DNA of 64,000 bases, from assembly GCF_008327685.1 (NCBI RefSeq), contig NZ_BDDE01000010.1, positions 62,001 through 126,000 on the forward strand. The letters run 5' to 3'. Under the pieces are notes generated by a model that worked only from the letters and a program-made list of their open reading frames with translations, made no database searches and was not told where the DNA came from. Shown here in pieces: positions 3,146 to 11,939 of the stretch. Source of the stretch: Actinomadura sp. K4S16 (GTDB taxonomy: Bacteria; Actinomycetota; Actinomycetes; Streptosporangiales; Streptosporangiaceae). A program made the position numbers and the translations under genes. The number at the start of each line of letters is the position of its first letter. Within the stretch, counting starts at the first letter, position 1.

Positions 3146-5302
3146 TCACGGCTCGGAGCGGATCGCCTGGACGACGGCACCGTCCACGACGCAGTACACC
3201 GTGCCGCCCATCGCGGTGTAGTACTGCGCCGTACCCACCGTGCGAAGGACGTCCTCGAAATCGAAGCGGCGACGTAGGCGGCCTGTCGGCAGATCAAGCA
3301 CCGACAGGCCGTCGACGGCGCCGTAGTACACCAGCGATCCCAGGATCAGCGGTCGTTCGCGTTGCCCCTGGCCGACTTCGCGCTCCCAGCGGGGCGTGCC
3401 TGTGGCGGCGTCCAGGGCGACGATCCGGCCGTCGTTGTCGGTGACCACCGCGAGCCCTCCGCCCACCGCGGGGACCAGGAAGTCGCGCGACCCCTCATTG
3501 CCGGCCGCGCCAGTGACGGAGCGCTTCCACCGCAGGCGCCCGGACGCCGGATCGATGGCGTAGAGGGTCCCGTCCTGGCCGCCGACGAACACGGTGCCGC
3601 CGGCGACTCCCGCCGGGGCTCCCTTCCCAAGCTCGGACGCCGCGGCGCCGCCGAGGGCGACGCTCCACCGCTTCCGGCCGGTCGCCGCGTCGAGGCCGAG
3701 GACGGAGCCGTCCTCGGTGATGACCACCACCACGCCGCCCTCCGCCATCGGCGTCGTGCTGGAGCCGGCGCCCGTCCGCACCTGCCAGCGAGCGTTGCCG
3801 GTGACGAGGTCGATCCCGTAGACGAAGCCCTTCCCCGTGCCGAAGCAGCACATGCCGCCCGAGAGCACCGCCTGGGTCTGGAGCAGGCCGTCCACGCGGT
3901 ACTGCCAGCGCGGCCGGCCGCTCGCGGCGTCGTACCCGTACAGCCCGTACTCCCCGGTGCCGCTGCTGCCGGTGAGGCAGACGACCCCGGACGCGGCGAC
4001 GAGGGCGGGCGCGAGTCCGAAGGTCTTCAGCGGCTGGGTCCAGAGGGTCTTGCCGGTCGCCTCGTCGAACCCGACCACGGCCTCCCGGCCCGTGGAGTCG
4101 TAGAGGAAGCCCCGGCCGCCGAGCAGGGCCGGTGACGACTCGCGGGCCGCTGTGAAGTCGGCCTGCCACCTCTGCTTCCCGGTCCGGGCGTCGAGCGCGA
4201 ACGTGCGGCCGGCCAGCCCGGCGGAGCCGAACGCGTACACGGTCCGGCCCGACGCGACGAGCCGCGTCCTGATGTACGTGCTGTCGGGCAGCTCGAACGT
4301 CCAGCGGACCGGGGAGTCGTCCCGTCGCAGGAGGAAGGCGCCGGTCCCGCCGGCGGCCAGGGCCGCCAGGACGCCGCCCGCGCCGAGGGCCAGGAAGACG
4401 CGACGGCCCGGGGCGCGGGGGGCGGCGGGCTCGCCCCGCCGGGCGACGTCGTGCGCGACGGGCGGCGGGAGCCATTGCGTGCCCTGCGCGGCGGCGGCCG
4501 GGTCGTCGGACAGCTGCGCCAGCAGCCAGTCGGCACCCGGCCTGCGGGCAGGATCCTTGTCCATGCATGCCGCGATCAGCGCGCGGAGACCGGGATCGGC
4601 GACGCCGTCCAGGTAGGGCGGCAGGTGCATGACGCGGTACACCAGCTCGTGGACGGCGCCCCGTCCGAACGGGCCGGCACCGGTGGCGGCGTAGGTCAGG
4701 ACGGCGCCGAACGAGAACACGTCCGACGGCGGCCCGACCGCCTCGCCGGCGGCCTGCTCGGGGGACATGTAGGCGGGGGTGCCGAGGGCCACGCCGGTCC
4801 GCGTCAGCGCGGTGGCCTCGCTCGGGCGGGCGATGCCGAAGTCGATGACGCGCGGGCCCTCGGGCGTGAGCATCACGTTGGACGGTTTGAGGTCGCGGTG
4901 CACGATCCCGGCGCGGTGGATCGACACCAGCGCCTCGGCGAGCCCGGCGCCGAGCGCGCGGACCGCGGGGGGCGGCAGCGGCCCGTGCGCCGCGACGGCG
5001 TCCTCCAGGGAGAGCCCGCGCAGGAACGTCGTGGCGAGCCACGGCGGCGAGGCGTCGGGGTCGGCGTCCACCACCGGGGCGGTGTGGACGCCGCTGACCG
5101 CGCGGGCCGCCGTGATCTCGCGCCGGAACCGGGCCCGGAAGTCGCCGTCCTCCGCCATGGCCGGATGAATGATCTTGATGGCGACCGTCCGGCCGGCGGG
5201 CGAGCGGCCGAGGAAGACCTGCCCCATGCCGCCCGCGCCCAGCCTGGCCACGACGCGGTAGGGCCCCACCTGCCGCGGGTCTCCCGGACGTGTCGCGGAC
5301 AT
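3146..5302 (-). CDS. Receptor Ser/Thr protein kinase with extracellular PQQ propeller (copy 1)
   Basis: The 718-residue protein has an N-terminal Hanks-type kinase domain (about 13-265). It shows a glycine loop, catalytic Lys43 (VAIKII), HRD at 135-137, DFG at 154-156 and an intact APE-like segment with the downstream C-lobe. A single membrane helix lies at about 302-325. The remainder (335-718) is a chain of W-x-x-x-repeat PQQ blades that should form an extracellular beta-propeller. The layout resembles AfsK/PknD-type sensor kinases, so it should sense an envelope ligand and phosphorylate cytoplasmic proteins. The ATG at 5302 was chosen because the glycine loop follows it directly; upstream in-frame sequence is not kinase-like. 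It lies 14 nt behind a paralogue on the same strand and probably shares its transcript. Confidence 0.93.
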   Translation of the reverse strand: MSATRPGDPRQVGPYRVVARLGAGGMGQVFLGRSPAGRTVAIKIIHPAMAEDGDFRARFRREITAARAVSGVHTAPVVDADPDASPPWLATTFLRGLSLEDAVAAHGPLPPPAVRALGAGLAEALVSIHRAGIVHRDLKPSNVMLTPEGPRVIDFGIARPSEATALTRTGVALGTPAYMSPEQAAGEAVGPPSDVFSFGAVLTYAATGAGPFGRGAVHELVYRVMHLPPYLDGVADPGLRALIAACMDKDPARRPGADWLLAQLSDDPAAAAQGTQWLPPPVAHDVARRGEPAAPRAPGRRVFLALGAGGVLAALAAGGTGAFLLRRDDSPVRWTFELPDSTYIRTRLVASGRTVYAFGSAGLAGRTFALDARTGKQRWQADFTAARESSPALLGGRGFLYDSTGREAVVGFDEATGKTLWTQPLKTFGLAPALVAASGVVCLTGSSGTGEYGLYGYDAASGRPRWQYRVDGLLQTQAVLSGGMCCFGTGKGFVYGIDLVTGNARWQVRTGAGSSTTPMAEGGVVVVITEDGSVLGLDAATGRKRWSVALGGAAASELGKGAPAGVAGGTVFVGGQDGTLYAIDPASGRLRWKRSVTGAAGNEGSRDFLVPAVGGGLAVVTDNDGRIVALDAATGTPRWEREVGQGQRERPLILGSLVYYGAVDGLSVLDLPTGRLRRRFDFEDVLRTVGTAQYYTAMGGTVYCVVDGAVVQAIRSEP

Positions 5303-5316
5303 CGGTTCTCCGTCTC

Positions 5317-7383
5317 TCAGCCGGTCGCGGTGCTTGATCCACCGCGCGCGTCGAGAGCGTACAGGTACCCGTCCTTGCAGCCGGCGTAGATGATCCCCTC
5401 TCCGACGGCCACACCGGACTCGATGCCCTCGTCGGTCTGGAACCGCCACACCTTGCGGCCGGTGGCGGCCTCGACCGCGTACACGCATCCGTCCGAATAG
5501 ACCCCGCTCGGGACGTACAGGACGCCGCCGGTCAGGACGGGGTTCTCGTGGATCTGCCCGTCCAGTTGGACCTGCCAGCGCATCGTCCCCGTGGCGGGAT
5601 CCAGAGCGGAGACCTTCCCGCCGTAGTCGCACACGTACACCAGGCGGTCGGTCACGACCGGGCGGGAGGTGGCGGTCTCGCCCATGTCGAACGTCCAGCG
5701 CCGCTTGCCGGTACGGGCGGCGACCGCGTGGACCTTCTCGCCCTGGAAGTCGGCGAAGCAGACCATGCCGTTCGCCGCCGCGGTGTCCTGGACGCCCTGG
5801 GGGGACGGGTACGTCCATCGGGGCCGGCCGGTGGACGCGTCGTAGGCGGTGAGGCTCTTACGGCCGGGAGCGTATACGGCCCCGTCGGCGACGGCGGGGG
5901 TCCGATCGGCCCCGCCGCGCCGCCATCGGACGGCGCCCCCGGACGCGTCGAGCGCTTGGAGGGCGTCGCCGCCGCAGTAAACCAGCCCCCCGGCGACTAG
6001 GGGGTCCGCTTGGGTGCCCCCGACCGTACGCTGCCATCTGAGCCTGCCCGTGCGGGCATCGACCGCGTGCAGGACGCCATCCTGGGAAAGCGCGTAGACG
6101 AGGCCCGACGCGACGGCGGGACCGGTGACGATCCGCCGTGCGGTCCGGTACTTCCACCGCGGTTTGCCGGACTTGGCGTCGAATGCCAGCAGGCCCCCTT
6201 TCTCGCTGCCCACGAAGACCTGTCCGCCTGCCACCGCCGGTGTGGAGACGAGGTATTCGTCGCCGGAGAAGCGCTTCCACAGCACCTTGCCGTCTCGCAT
6301 GGGAGCAGGCGCGGCCGGCACGGAGGACGCGGCGGACGGCACGGTCGGCGTCCGCGCGCCGGGCCCGTCCGAAGGCTCCTGGAGTGCCCGGACCAGCGCC
6401 ACGACTCCCCCGGTGCCCAGCACGACGCCGGCGGCCGCCCCGCCCAGGAGCAGGAACCGCCGCCGCCCCGGCTCCCCGCCCGTCGCGGGCACCGTGCGCG
6501 GGAGGTCGGGCACGTCCGTTCCGGCCTGGAGGACGCGAGCGGCGACGGTGTCCGGCAGCCAGCCGACGCCGTGCAGGTCGGTGCTCTGCGGCACGAGGGG
6601 TGCGAGCTGGTGGAGCAGCCGGTCCGGGGTCGGTCGCCTGTAGGGGTCGGCGTCCAGGCAGGCCTCGACCACGGCCCGCAGCGCCGGGTCGGTGACGGCG
6701 CCGAGCCGCGGCCGCTCGTGCACGGCGCGGTAGATCAGCACGTGGGGCGGTCCCTGCCCGTAGGGGCCGGCGCCCGTCGTGGCGAAGACCAGCACCGCGC
6801 CGAGGGAGAAGACGTCGGCGGCCGGCCCCGTCGGCGCTCCGCGGGCCTGCTCCGGCGCCATGAAGCCCGGGGACCCGACGGCGAAGCCCGCCTGGGTGAC
6901 GGCGGCGGCGTCCGCGGCGTGGGCGATGCCGAAGTCGATCACCTTGGGCCCGTCGATCCCCAGGATGACGTTGGACGGTTTGAGGTCGCGGTGCACGACG
7001 CCGGCGCGGTGGATCGACACCAGCGCCTCGGCGAGCCCGGCGCCCAGCACGACGGCGGCGGGGGCCGGCAGCGTTCCCGCCAGGTCCAGCGGGACGCCCG
7101 GCAGGTACGCGGTCGCCAGCCACGGCAGGGCGGCGTCGGGATCGGCGTCGACGACGGGCGCGGTGAAGGCGCCGCTCACGGCCCGGGCGGCATCGACCTC
7201 GCGCCGGAAACGCGCCCGGAAGTCGGGATCCTCGACCAGTTGCGGATGGACGAGCTTGACCGCCACCAGCGTCCCGCCGGGCGAACGCCCCAGGAACACC
7301 TGGCCCATGCCGCCGGTGCCGAGCCTGCCCAGCAGCCGGTGGCCGCCGACCCGCCGTGGATCACCGGACCGCAGCGGCTCCAT
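5317..7383 (-). CDS. Receptor Ser/Thr protein kinase with extracellular PQQ propeller (copy 2)
   Basis: A 688-residue paralogue of the neighbouring kinase with the same order of parts. The kinase domain spans about 13-265 with Lys43, HRD at 131-133 and DFG at 150-152. A proline/alanine-rich juxtamembrane stretch follows, then one membrane helix near 325-350 and a C-terminal PQQ-blade propeller. The first 80 residues are close to copy 1 (GDPRxVG, LGRSP, DFRARFRRE), whereas the propellers differ more, as expected if kinase input was conserved and ligand recognition diverged. The ATG at 7383 begins MEPLRSGDPRR, which aligns with MSATRPGDPRQ of copy 1. An upstream ATG at 7476 would add 31 non-kinase residues and is not preferred. 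This gene is first in the pair. Confidence 0.93.
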   Translation of the reverse strand: MEPLRSGDPRRVGGHRLLGRLGTGGMGQVFLGRSPGGTLVAVKLVHPQLVEDPDFRARFRREVDAARAVSGAFTAPVVDADPDAALPWLATAYLPGVPLDLAGTLPAPAAVVLGAGLAEALVSIHRAGVVHRDLKPSNVILGIDGPKVIDFGIAHAADAAAVTQAGFAVGSPGFMAPEQARGAPTGPAADVFSLGAVLVFATTGAGPYGQGPPHVLIYRAVHERPRLGAVTDPALRAVVEACLDADPYRRPTPDRLLHQLAPLVPQSTDLHGVGWLPDTVAARVLQAGTDVPDLPRTVPATGGEPGRRRFLLLGGAAAGVVLGTGGVVALVRALQEPSDGPGARTPTVPSAASSVPAAPAPMRDGKVLWKRFSGDEYLVSTPAVAGGQVFVGSEKGGLLAFDAKSGKPRWKYRTARRIVTGPAVASGLVYALSQDGVLHAVDARTGRLRWQRTVGGTQADPLVAGGLVYCGGDALQALDASGGAVRWRRGGADRTPAVADGAVYAPGRKSLTAYDASTGRPRWTYPSPQGVQDTAAANGMVCFADFQGEKVHAVAARTGKRRWTFDMGETATSRPVVTDRLVYVCDYGGKVSALDPATGTMRWQVQLDGQIHENPVLTGGVLYVPSGVYSDGCVYAVEAATGRKVWRFQTDEGIESGVAVGEGIIYAGCKDGYLYALDARGGSSTATG

Positions 7384-7569: not shown

Positions 7570-8886
7570 TCAGCCGGTGGTGTAGCAGGGGGCGTTCAGC
7601 TGGTAGCTCCGGGCTGTCGGGCCTGCCGCGAAGTCCGTCATCACCTTGATGCCGGTGAACTCGTGCTGGTCCGGCCTGCCGAGCACCGTCTGCCGGAAGG
7701 CCGAGGAGTTCGGGGAGCCGGAGGAGTTCCCGGCCTCGGCGGGCAGGATGCCCTCGTAGTCGACGAACCTGATGGAGCGCACGGCCTTCAGCAGCCCCTC
7801 GCGGCTCAGGTCCTTGTCCTCGATCGCCCGCTGAAGGGCGGCCTTCAGCGGGTAGGACAGGACCCATCCGGTGGTGTAGGCGTCGTCCGGTTCGACCCTG
7901 CCGACCGCCTGCCGCATCGCGGCGTGGCCGGGCGAATCGGTCGCGAACGGCTTCCACGGTGCGACCTGGATGTACCGCTCCTTCATCGCGTCGATCGCGG
8001 GGCTCTGCAGCAGGCCCTTCGACCACGTGGGGTTGTCGCCGATGAAATGCCCCGTGTAGCCGCCCCGGACGGTCTTGCCGATGATGGTCGCCGCGTCGAC
8101 GGGGCTCGTGGTGAGGACGACGAGGTCGGGCTTCTTCCCGAGGATGGCCCGCACGGCCTCCTCCTGTTCCGCGCTGCTCTTGCCGGGCTGCCCCTGGGCA
8201 GTCGGCACGTCGGTGAAGGAGAGCCCGCGCGCCGCGGCGGCGATCCTCGCCCCGGCGGCCGCGTCGTCGCCGTAGTCCCCGGCGTAGTGGACCGCCATGA
8301 CGCTCTTGGCCCTGAGGTGGTCGGCGCCGTAGTCGACGCCGTTCATCGCCTCGAAGCAGTACGAGGCTCCCGACTCCAGGATGTTGTCCTCGAACTCCCA
8401 CTTCGACGTCCAGGACACGGGCAGCGCGACCATCGCGTCCGCCCGCAGGGAGCCGAGGATCGCGTCCGTCACCGGCGATCCGAGCGTCTGCGCCAGCGCG
8501 AGCACCTTGCCCTTGATCTCGTTGTAGGCCCTGGCCTGCACCCGCGGGTCGTAGTGGTTGTCGCGGACGTAGGTGACCACGTCGATGTCGTAGCCGGCGA
8601 TGCCTCCCTGCCGGTTCACGCGGTCCCAGAAGGCGCGCTGCGCCCGGGTGACCGGGACCCCCAGCGCCTTGAAGGGCCCGTCGCTCAGATCCGACAGGGT
8701 GCCGAGGTAGATGCAGCCGTGCCCCTCGTTGACCGCGTGCGGGCAGGGCTCGCGGGTCACTCCCGGCGCGCTCGACGCGAGCAGGCCGTCCGAGTCGCCG
8801 CATCCGGCGGTCCCCAGCGTCGCCAGCAGCACGGCGCTCGCCAGCAGGGCCTTGACCCGCGGCAGGTCACAGCGCACGGAGACCAT
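7570..8886 (-). CDS. Branched-chain amino acid-type ABC substrate-binding lipoprotein
   Basis: This 438-residue protein has an N-terminal hydrophobic segment ending in a lipobox-like TAGC with Cys29, so it is probably a lipoprotein on the outer face of the membrane. The body has the type I periplasmic-binding fold of the LivJ family: an N-terminal lobe with a GxLSDLS-like strand, NRQGGIAGYDI, and a long hinge-linked second lobe. No permease or ATPase gene adjoins it. Instead it is the last gene of an operon with a DUF742 protein and a sensor kinase, starting 20 nt inside the DUF742 gene behind a strong GGAGGA at about 8892-8897. Ligand presentation to the kinase is the likely role, by inference. 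Confidence 0.88.
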   Translation of the reverse strand: MVSVRCDLPRVKALLASAVLLATLGTAGCGDSDGLLASSAPGVTREPCPHAVNEGHGCIYLGTLSDLSDGPFKALGVPVTRAQRAFWDRVNRQGGIAGYDIDVVTYVRDNHYDPRVQARAYNEIKGKVLALAQTLGSPVTDAILGSLRADAMVALPVSWTSKWEFEDNILESGASYCFEAMNGVDYGADHLRAKSVMAVHYAGDYGDDAAAGARIAAAARGLSFTDVPTAQGQPGKSSAEQEEAVRAILGKKPDLVVLTTSPVDAATIIGKTVRGGYTGHFIGDNPTWSKGLLQSPAIDAMKERYIQVAPWKPFATDSPGHAAMRQAVGRVEPDDAYTTGWVLSYPLKAALQRAIEDKDLSREGLLKAVRSIRFVDYEGILPAEAGNSSGSPNSSAFRQTVLGRPDQHEFTGIKVMTDFAAGPTARSYQLNAPCYTTG

Positions 8887-9247
8887 TGATCACTTCCTCC
8901 AGAAGACGCCGGTCGGCGGGCCCCGTCCGGGGCGCCGCCGGCCGCTGTACGGTCACCAGCCCGCGGTCCAGCAGGTCGCTCAGCAGCACGCGGACGACCC
9001 CGACCGGCAGCCGCAGGTCCGCCGCCAGGTCGACGACGGTCCGGGGCCGCAGGCAGCGTTCGAGGATCTGCTCGTCCTCCGGTCCGAGCGTCCGGGGGTC
9101 CGGCATCGGCACCTCGGCGGTGACGACCACCGCGATGAGGTCCAGCGCGGCGCCCCGCTGCCGTGTCCTGCCCCTCGCCACCGCGAAGGGGCGGACGACG
9201 GGCCCGGCCTGCTCGTCGACCCACAGTTCGTCCGGTTCCCCGGGCAT
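8867..9247 (-). CDS. DUF742 protein (CvnC-like conservon component)
   Basis: A 126-residue protein of the DUF742 family. These are small cytoplasmic proteins with a winged-helix-like C-terminal half that accompany conservon sensor kinases in actinomycetes. The characteristic C-terminal half is visible: GPEDEQILERCL, then the VVDLAADLRLPVGVVRVLLSDLLDRGLV stretch (quoted in parts), then LLEEVINGLRAL. Its ATG overlaps the stop of the upstream kinase by one base (TAATG), and its own 3' end overlaps the binding-protein start by 20 nt, so the three genes should be translated together. The roadblock/LC7 protein that normally sits between the kinase and this protein is absent, as is the GTPase that normally follows. 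Confidence 0.9.
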   Translation of the reverse strand: MPGEPDELWVDEQAGPVVRPFAVARGRTRQRGAALDLIAVVVTAEVPMPDPRTLGPEDEQILERCLRPRTVVDLAADLRLPVGVVRVLLSDLLDRGLVTVQRPAAPRTGPADRRLLEEVINGLRAL

Positions 9248-11577
9248 TACTCACCGCCGGAGCCGGGCGGCGGCTGGGTCCCGGGGACGGCCGGGCCGGC
9301 GTCGCCGCCGGCTTCCGCCCGGCCGCGCCGCCAGCCGCTCTGCATCTCCGCCAGCAGGTGCCCGGCGGCCTCCGGGGGCCGGTCGACCGGTGCGGCGCCG
9401 CCCGGTTCGGGCGGTGCCTCGCGGAGCTGCGGGGCGAGGCTCCGCTGGCGCTGCCGCCTGGGCAGTCCGTGCTCGCCCTCGGCCTCCTGCCCGGTCTCCG
9501 CGCCGCTCTCCTCGCGGCCTCCCTCCAGGGCGAGCGGGTCCGGGGCGGGCGCCCCCTCGACAGCCGGGACCGGGCCGGGAGCAGACCGGGTCCGATGCCC
9601 CTCCCCGGCCGTCTCCGCCATGCCGGACACGGCGACCAGCGACCTGTGCTCGCCGGAGCCGTCCTCGGCGCTCCCCTCCCCCATGGCGGGCAGTTCGACG
9701 ACGAGCTCGTGGGGGATGAGCACGATCGCGACGACGCCCCCGTAGGGCGAGGAGCGCAGGACCACCCTGATGCCGTGCCGGGCCGCGAGCCGCGCCACGA
9801 CGAACAGCCCCAGCCGGACCGAGTCGTCGAAGTCGAGCTCGGGATCGGTGGCGAGCAGCCCGTTCAGCCGCTCCAGTTCCTCAGCGGAGAGCCCGAGCCC
9901 GCGGTCCTCGACCTCGATCGCGAAACCATGCGCGGCCTCCCCGCCGGTCACCCGGATCCTGGTGGTGGGCGGGGAGAACACGGCGGCGTTCTCGATCAGT
10001 TCGGCCAGCAGGTGGATGGTGTCGGCGACGGCGCGGCCGGACAGGGCCGTGCGTCCCATCGGCACGACCTCGACCCGGGTGTAGTCCGCCACCTCCGACG
10101 CCGCCGCGCGCGCGACGTCCATCAGCCGGACCGGGTGGCGCCAGCTCCGCCCGGACGGCCGTCCGGACAGGATGACCAGGCCCTCCGCGTGCCGGCGCAT
10201 CCGGGTCGCCAGGTGGTCGAGCTCGAAGAGGGCCGCCAGGGCGTCCGGGTCCTCAGTGTCGCGCTCCATCCCTTCCAGGAGGCCGAGGAGGCGCTGCAGC
10301 AGGGACTGGTTCCGCCGCGCGAGGGTGAGGAAGACGTCGTTGATGCGCTTGTGCGCGGCCGCCTCGCTCTCCGACGCACGGACGACGGCCATGCGCGCCT
10401 CGGTGAACGCGGCGTCGATCCTGCCGATCTCGGTGACGGCGAACTCGGTCGCCGGCCCGGGGTCCTCCCCGGGCACGGGCTCCCCGCGGCGGGCCCGCTC
10501 GCTGATCGCCGGGATCCGGTCCCGGGTGAAGGCGGCGACCGCGTCGGCGATGCCGCGGCTCTCCCGGATCAGCCGGTGCCCCATCCGGACCGCGATGACG
10601 ATGGCGGCCACCACGGCGAGTAGCCCGACGCCGCCGGCGAGCGCGAGGCGGAGCAGCACCGAGTCCGCCTTGTCGGCCGCCCGCGCCGCGGTGGCCGTGC
10701 GGATCCGGGACGAGAGCTCGGCCAGCTGGATGTCCACCGCCTCCGTGGAGGTGTGCCAGGCTCCGACGTCCACCGGCGGACGCCCCTCGGTGGGGCCCAC
10801 CTGGATCAGCCGGCTCTCCAGCTGCTGGAACAGGCTGAACTCGGGCCCGGCGATGATCGCCTCGTACCGCCGGCGGTCGCCGTCGGCCAGGGCACCGGTC
10901 GAGTCGCCGTAGAGGAAGCGCCGGGTCCCGGCCAGTTCCACCAGCCACCGGTGCTCGTCCTCGCTCAGCCTTCCCGCCGTCAGCGCGCCGGTGATCAGCG
11001 CGTCCTCCCGCGACAGGCTCTCCCTCGCCCGCTCCAGGAGGTCGAGGACCCGCGTGTCGCGCAGGATGCGCTCGTCGGACGAGCGGGTCTCGTCGTAGAT
11101 CTCGGCCGCCTGGTCGATGAACCCGGTGTAGCGGGCCAGGGCCTGCGCGCGGTTGATCTGCCGCCGGTCGACCGAGTCGCGGACGCTCTCCAGGTCGCTC
11201 AGGGAGGCGGCCAGATCGACCATCCGCCGCCGGGTCTCGGGGGTGGCCGCGCCGCGGATGGACGGGTCCGCGGCCGACCTGCGGAACGCCGCCCGGGTCC
11301 GGTCCGTCTTCGCCCGCTGGGCGTCGAAGCCCGACCGGCCGATGGTGGAATCGTCCCCGAGGTAGGACAGCGACATGCGCCGCTCGTCCTGCAGCGTGTC
11401 GATCATCGCGTCAGTCGGCCGGACGACCTTCTCGGTGAAGGTCCGCGACCGCGCCTGCCGCAGGGCGTCCCCGAGCGTGGTGGCCGCCGCGAAGGCCCAC
11501 AGGGCGACCAGCGCGATGATCGGGGGGACGAGGAGGGTGACGATTCTCGTCCGGACCGAACGTGCTCGCCGCGCCAT
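9247..11577 (-). CDS. Nitrate/sulfonate-sensing (NIT) histidine kinase, CvnA-like
   Basis: The 776-residue sensor has a first membrane helix at about 10-30, an extracytoplasmic all-helical NIT-type sensor of roughly 270 residues, a second helix near 305-325, a HAMP-like linker and a C-terminal GHKL ATPase. The dimerisation region reads LARRNQSLLQRLLGLLEGMERD, then LDHLATRMRRHAEGL, typical of conservon kinases, which lack a classical H-box. The N-box is LLAELIENAAVFSPP and the G-box EDRGLGL. A low-complexity tail follows the ATPase. The ATG at 11577 has GGGAGG five bases upstream; an ATG at 11673 would add a non-membrane leader and is rejected. It heads the kinase-DUF742-lipoprotein operon. 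Confidence 0.92.
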   Translation of the reverse strand: MARRARSVRTRIVTLLVPPIIALVALWAFAAATTLGDALRQARSRTFTEKVVRPTDAMIDTLQDERRMSLSYLGDDSTIGRSGFDAQRAKTDRTRAAFRRSAADPSIRGAATPETRRRMVDLAASLSDLESVRDSVDRRQINRAQALARYTGFIDQAAEIYDETRSSDERILRDTRVLDLLERARESLSREDALITGALTAGRLSEDEHRWLVELAGTRRFLYGDSTGALADGDRRRYEAIIAGPEFSLFQQLESRLIQVGPTEGRPPVDVGAWHTSTEAVDIQLAELSSRIRTATAARAADKADSVLLRLALAGGVGLLAVVAAIVIAVRMGHRLIRESRGIADAVAAFTRDRIPAISERARRGEPVPGEDPGPATEFAVTEIGRIDAAFTEARMAVVRASESEAAAHKRINDVFLTLARRNQSLLQRLLGLLEGMERDTEDPDALAALFELDHLATRMRRHAEGLVILSGRPSGRSWRHPVRLMDVARAAASEVADYTRVEVVPMGRTALSGRAVADTIHLLAELIENAAVFSPPTTRIRVTGGEAAHGFAIEVEDRGLGLSAEELERLNGLLATDPELDFDDSVRLGLFVVARLAARHGIRVVLRSSPYGGVVAIVLIPHELVVELPAMGEGSAEDGSGEHRSLVAVSGMAETAGEGHRTRSAPGPVPAVEGAPAPDPLALEGGREESGAETGQEAEGEHGLPRRQRQRSLAPQLREAPPEPGGAAPVDRPPEAAGHLLAEMQSGWRRGRAEAGGDAGPAVPGTQPPPGSGGE

Positions 11578-11939
11578 CACGCCTCCCGTCGCCGGCAGCG
11601 TCCGCGTCCCGCCGATCCGCGCTTGATCACTGTGACGCAGCTCACTTTTGCGCTGCCGAACGTAGCCCACCATGGCGAACCACTCGCCCTTTTTGCGCCA
11701 TTGGCTTGGATTGTTACATTCGTGTTATTTGGCGATATGCCAGGTCAATGGCGCGATCCGGCCAGCGGTCCACCGGAGGCAAGGGGCCGCCGGACGCCTG
11801 GAGGTCCAATCCCGAGCCGGCCTCTCCGGCCATCGGGGGACCAGGACCGCGCCCGCGATCGGTTTCCCCGGATTGACCCGTGATTCCAGTCTCGAAATGC
11901 ACCCGATCCAAGGTCTATCGGGTTCCTAGCGTGGTGGTC
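11578..11939. promoter_or_regulatory. Divergent intergenic region between the NIT kinase and the MFS gene
   Basis: This 362-bp gap separates two divergent genes and holds no convincing gene. The stretch at about 11688-11745 is markedly AT-richer than its surroundings, as expected for a promoter serving the minus-strand kinase operon. At the right end a -10-like TAGCGT (11927-11932) lies 7 nt before the MFS ATG, suggesting a leaderless transcript. TTGACC occurs at 11873-11878, but it is too far from TAGCGT to be its -35. Confidence 0.5.

Follow-up and report, generated by a model that had tools for sequence, protein, structure and literature searches.

The NIT-type conservons 1–6 of Streptomyces coelicolor (CvnA-B-C-D) are the described systems to which we compare a three-gene operon of Actinomadura sp. 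K4S16 (GCF_008327685.1), located in a 64,000-nucleotide (nt) stretch of contig NZ_BDDE01000010.1 (positions 62,001–126,000) that is referred to as the window. The operon and the conservons have in common a NIT-HATPase kinase with an LPxR tail, a DUF742 protein, the gene order, and a 20-nt overlap after cvnC, whereas the operon (hereafter the triplet) has neither roadblock nor GTPase gene and carries the gene of a solute-binding lipoprotein after cvnC. LPxR is a conserved motif of conservon kinases, and conservons having lost the GTPase gene were already noted (PMC4316618). By gene content, the triplet lacks two defining conservon features; by descent, it is a conservon.

Three other groups of systems resemble the triplet in part. 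Some conservons carry a fifth gene behind the core (CvnE, a P450; CvnF, a GAF protein; MfpA), and CvnF8 modulates its kinase. To our knowledge, these accessory proteins carry no export signal. CvnE and CvnF go with kinases lacking NIT (PMC13343842), whereas the accessory protein of the triplet is a lipoprotein and its kinase has NIT. In the actinobacterial systems MtrAB-LpqB and GlnH-GlnX-PknG, a membrane signalling protein is likewise modulated by a lipoprotein, but the protein families are different: MtrAB works with a response regulator, and GlnX-PknG with a Ser/Thr kinase. LivFGHM importers with an AMP-binding gene include a homologous Peripla_BP_6 lipoprotein (53–59% identity), but they have their own permease and ATPase genes and the triplet has none. 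The literature search found no conservon linked to a substrate-binding protein or to a lipoprotein, most subscription papers being outside the search.

Gene content and junctions of the triplet

The earlier note had described kinase, DUF742, and lipoprotein genes in an operon without roadblock, GTPase, Liv permease, or ATPase genes, and this was confirmed by the coordinates and by the Pfam matches of the three proteins, all of which were above the cut-off (Table 1). The locus gave no PF03259 match, and none of the genes called between 5317 and 13421 encodes a response regulator. The kinase ends in the tail LPRRQRQRSL and contains the LPxR motif (LPRRQRQRSLAPQLR). Its start was taken at 11577 (GGAGGCGTGATG) rather than at 11673, the start of an alternative open reading frame of 808 amino acids (aa), because relatives begin there and because the CRP-type site falls between both starts. 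The DUF742 signature RPYxxTxGR reads RPFAVARGR in the window protein, and the lipoprotein begins with a signal peptide and a lipobox-like GTAGC and matches PDB 4n03 (E 6.5e-43).

Table 1. Features of the triplet and its upstream region (positions in the window).
Feature	Coordinates	Strand	Details
cvnA-like membrane kinase, 776 aa	9247..11577	minus	NIT PF08376 E 2.6e-40; HATPase_c E 1.9e-10
Parts of the kinase			NIT sensor, residues 58–293; DHp, H-box LDHLATRMRR (His455); HATPase_c, residues 521–623
cvnC-like DUF742 protein, 126 aa	8867..9247	minus	PF05331 E 2.1e-34, 118 bits (cut-off 27)
Peripla_BP_6 (LivJ-type) solute-binding lipoprotein, 438 aa	7570..8886	minus	PF13458 E 1.4e-30
DUF742/lipoprotein overlap, 20 nt	8867..8886	minus	Same register as the conservon cvnC/cvnD overlap
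GGAGGA, likely lipoprotein ribosome-binding site	8895..8900	minus	Within the DUF742 gene, 8 nt before the lipoprotein ATG
CRP/GlxR-type palindrome GTGAGCTGCGTCAC	11632..11645	minus	Upstream of the kinase gene
Direct repeat ATAAC-N6-GTAAC	11713..11728	minus	GlnR/AfsQ1-like spacing
TACGTT, putative -10-like hexamer (by eye)	11659..11664	minus	Just upstream of the CRP-type site

The kinase TAA and the DUF742 ATG have base 9247 in common (TAATG). This junction and the 20-nt overlap were as previously described, while the GGAGGA, which had been placed inside the overlap, lies just outside it. The exact 20-nt overlap was found at 22 of 27 cvnC-lipoprotein junctions and at 20 of 26 cvnC-GTPase junctions (counts that include two species twice) but at none of 674 other same-strand neighbour pairs. 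The start codon of the Actinomadura lipoprotein sits at the GTPase start position of relatives, and in L122, an Actinomadura locus with no gene after DUF742, the former start codon is now ACG. The first residues of the lipoprotein (M[VD]SVR...) are set by the end of cvnC, and therefore only the GTPase start site need be inherited.

Spread of the triplet and probable descent from a five-gene conservon

A search of relatives for kinase-DUF742-lipoprotein triplets, proposed in the earlier note, recovered the arrangement widely. It was present in all eight named Actinomadura relatives, some of which belong to species also represented in the larger set of 65 Actinomadura genomes. Twenty-five of these 65 genomes have a DUF742 gene of the window lineage, which is followed by the lipoprotein gene in 23 (in one of these, the contig stops short of the kinase). 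A triplet is also present in two genomes of a different genus (L080 and L082), with a short gap before the lipoprotein start, and none of the triplet operons contains Liv permease or ATPase genes. The arrangement is beyond chance, because it recurs in 23 of the 65 genomes and because dN/dS (the ratio of nonsynonymous to synonymous substitution rates) was 0.19–0.44 for all three genes against close relatives.

This conservation bears on the possibility that the operon is a decaying conservon, in which the missing roadblock and GTPase genes reflect degeneration and the rest are disappearing as well. Individual loci fit that description: DUF742 alone remains in L120, the lipoprotein gene is absent from L122, and in L094 the lipoprotein start is broken and the kinase is split. 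However, the arrangement is kept in 23 genomes with the dN/dS values given above, and the start-codon overlap and promoter motifs are maintained, and we consider decay most improbable. The interruption in L094 affects the frame of the lipoprotein start and signal peptide, and this triplet is possibly degenerate or contains a sequencing error.

The origin of the triplet was traced through related gene orders. In three genomes of one genus (L088–L090), the order is kinase-roadblock-DUF742-GTPase-lipoprotein, and in another related genus (L074), it is kinase-DUF742-GTPase-lipoprotein with no roadblock gene. All lipoprotein-linked loci form one group in the kinase and DUF742 tree (support 92/94), which adjoins an ordinary four-gene conservon of the K4S16 genome. 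From these gene orders and the tree grouping, the lipoprotein gene appears to be a former fifth, accessory gene, and parsimony suggests that a five-gene conservon gave rise to the triplet through loss of the roadblock and GTPase genes. Common descent with conservons is seen in both the kinase and DUF742 trees and the common 20-nt junction. Relatives whose corresponding locus includes roadblock and GTPase genes, regarded in the earlier note as a sign of recent loss, do exist (L088–L090, and with the GTPase only in L074), but the loss in Actinomadura is old and lineage-wide, not recent. The locus had also been put forward as an undescribed signalling unit; it is a conserved unit derived from conservons, but the same relatives identify it as a reduced conservon. 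A single origin of the Actinomadura and L080/L082 triplets was neither shown nor rejected (approximately unbiased (AU) test, p 0.245); it appeared in just 7% of bootstrap trees, and the junctions differ between the two genera.

The unit comprises only the kinase, DUF742, and lipoprotein genes, because flanking genes vary among lineages. COX1, SDR, AurF, and TetR neighbours were considered as members and rejected, being common to part of the genus and not found around the window copy. Downstream of the triplet, the window contains two adjacent Ser/Thr-kinase genes with similar starts (3146–7383, minus strand), and their C-terminal parts are repetitive, with PQQ-like repeats recognized by eye.

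Signal input, signal output, and rival explanations

The best explanation, which we regard as about as likely as not, is that the triplet is a reduced conservon in which a transporter-free lipoprotein modulates the NIT kinase, with output through DUF742 and a GTPase encoded in trans. As a protein that is anchored outside the membrane and lacks a dedicated transporter, the lipoprotein would bind a small ligand; the liganded lipoprotein would touch the NIT domain and alter the ATPase or autophosphorylation activity of the kinase. The signal would most probably pass onward via DUF742 as a partner, resembling a guanine nucleotide exchange factor (GEF), of another conservon's GTPase, a step in which we have less confidence than in the receptor step. 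We infer that the lipoprotein is the input subunit of the kinase because CvnF8, a fifth-gene accessory, stimulates the ATPase activity and autophosphorylation of CvnA8 (PMC13343842) and because lipoproteins modulate signalling proteins elsewhere, LpqB modulating MtrB (PMC13189361) and GlnH signalling via GlnX (PMC9769921). An input role, as proposed in the earlier note, is plausible from gene order as well, since complete conservons of a related genus carry the lipoprotein gene in fifth place.

Alternatively, the lipoprotein may serve as the transport receptor of a permease whose genes lie elsewhere, and its position in the operon would then reflect regulatory coupling and not sensing. Its 53–59% identical homologues, seen once in Actinomadura (L093) and otherwise in other genera, come directly behind LivH-LivM in the order LivF-LivG-(~610 aa)-LivH-LivM, and all 18 recognized homologues in the fetched phylum-wide loci come after LivM. 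However, the LivFGHM-linked lipoproteins group in a clade of their own that excludes the conservon-linked and most stand-alone ones (fork support only 81%). The K4S16 genome has no close permease-linked copy of the window lipoprotein; its other homologues are 27% and 32% identical, and the 27%-identical paralogue belongs to its own LivFGHM set (L029). In addition, the 20-nt overlap couples lipoprotein translation to DUF742. Thus, permease-linked relatives, which the earlier note had named as a counterindication, do exist elsewhere but are set apart from the triplet lipoproteins, and a transport receptor is quite unlikely. Liv-lipoprotein operons were seen at L060, L063, L065–L072, L075–L079, L086, L087, L093, L099, and L112–L114. 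The Liv-linked and triplet lipoproteins have 106 near-invariant positions in common, and 69 positions are conserved in the Liv set only. Relaxed permease contacts in the triplet lipoproteins were considered as an explanation, and no conclusion was drawn, the Liv set consisting mostly of close relatives.

The permease-linked homologues also guided a prediction of the ligand. In L093, the ~610-aa product is identified as an AMP-binding enzyme (E 8.9e-72), and the LivFGHM/AMP-binding operons may take up fatty or other organic acids and couple this import to activation. Our best guess by analogy is a carboxylic or fatty-acid-like ligand, because the operon of the permease-linked homologues holds an acyl-CoA-ligase-like enzyme. 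The 4n03 deposit, which we take to be a fatty-acid-binding protein, was not used for this assignment, and no paper on it was found.

The K4S16 genome has 11 DUF742 genes and 10 roadblock domains, and eight of the loci checked are complete conservons. DUF742 without roadblock occurs only at the window locus and on contig C19 (L025), where kinase, DUF742, and GTPase genes are present. About ten other conservons of the genome retain the GTPase, and MfpC, a CvnC homologue, is reported to be a GEF of a conservon GTPase (PMC13343842, PMC13015309); for these two reasons, we consider output through a GTPase in trans likelier than output without any. The claim of the earlier note that output passes without a GTPase switch was therefore not borne out, given the reported GEF and the many paralogous GTPases. 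In L127 and L129, a kinase-DUF742 pair without an intact roadblock gene or a GTPase gene lies directly upstream of two complete conservons, and a roadblock fragment persists between the kinase and DUF742 of the pair in L129. These pairs could use the GTPase of the neighbouring conservons.

A GTPase-free unit, in which kinase and DUF742 suffice and DUF742 is the direct output (e.g., by winged-helix DNA binding), is possible but somewhat unlikely. Consistent with it, roadblock and GTPase are absent from the operon in the 23 Actinomadura genomes and the two of the other genus, the two genera's triplets differ in their junctions and rarely share one origin in the bootstrap trees, the signature Thr of DUF742 is altered in most triplets, and DUF742 gave weak helix-turn-helix matches (ArsR E 0.0022, below the cut-off). 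Set against this, the AU test did not reject a single triplet origin, the window DUF742 keeps the remaining conserved columns of a family with a reported GEF, about ten conservon GTPases are available in the genome, and the kinase LPxR tail is kept. The related version in which a conservon branch dispensed with any GTPase, the lipoprotein driving the NIT kinase, DUF742 alone giving the output, and the GTPase start site having been taken over, is unlikely.

The residues of the triplet proteins are partly in line with the reduced conservon acting through a GTPase in trans. Triplet kinases keep the HATPase residues and the LPxR tail, and triplet DUF742 proteins retain almost all conserved positions except the signature Thr. 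Several observations weigh against this reading, however. Of the 26 readable DUF742-lipoprotein loci (two species counted twice), 20 have Ala in place of the signature Thr, which is kept in all 18 readable canonical DUF742 proteins; this speaks against the GTPase in trans in particular. The H-box His, which presumably corresponds to CvnA8 His183, the reported autophosphorylation site, is replaced by Ala or Ser in six triplet kinases (L096, L097, L098, L100, L101, and L102), with the ATPase residues kept; together with the Thr-to-Ala change, this hints at altered signalling. The retention of kinase and DUF742 without the lipoprotein in L122, and of DUF742 alone in L120, implies that the operon parts are separable. 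Predicted models were too poor for use, with a mean predicted local distance difference test (pLDDT) score of 48.9 and 51.7 for the lipoprotein and kinase (AlphaFold, from 8–9 sequences), and accessory proteins have been published with sensor-less kinases (PMC13343842), while the triplet kinase has a NIT sensor.

Promoter motifs and a possible nutrient role

The promoters of lipoprotein-linked conservons differ from those of canonical loci. The palindrome GTGA-N6-TCA[CT], which we take to be of the CRP type, was found upstream of cvnA in 20 of 30 lipoprotein-linked operons and in none of 24 canonical conservon promoters, and the repeat [GA][TC]AAC-N6-[GA][TC]AAC in 16 of the 30 and none of the 24; one species is counted twice among the 30 entries, and one entry has a split kinase. 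Background rates per 360 nt were 0.013 (palindrome) and 0.009 (repeat). Although related genomes are not independent, lipoprotein-linked and canonical promoters differ strongly. The repeat fits published GlnR boxes, for example GTnAC-n6-GTnAC (PMC10704036). By eye, a TAnnnT hexamer precedes the palindrome by ~10–15 nt in most loci inspected, the palindrome thus usually lying just downstream of the hexamer in a repressor-like position. The CRP-type palindrome also occurs upstream of four stand-alone lipoprotein genes (L061, L064, L073, and L084). Carbon and nitrogen status probably govern expression of the operon through a CRP-type factor and a GlnR-type regulator.

The triplet family bears on two general questions, namely how conservon kinases receive signals and what DUF742 does. 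For the first, the lipoprotein may be the ligand-binding subunit of a NIT-type kinase, and a nutrient role is suggested by the promoter motifs of CRP and GlnR type. For the second, the loci form a natural deletion series (A-B-C-D-lipoprotein, A-C-D-lipoprotein, A-C-lipoprotein, and A-C), through which one can ask whether DUF742 functions when no GTPase is encoded in cis.

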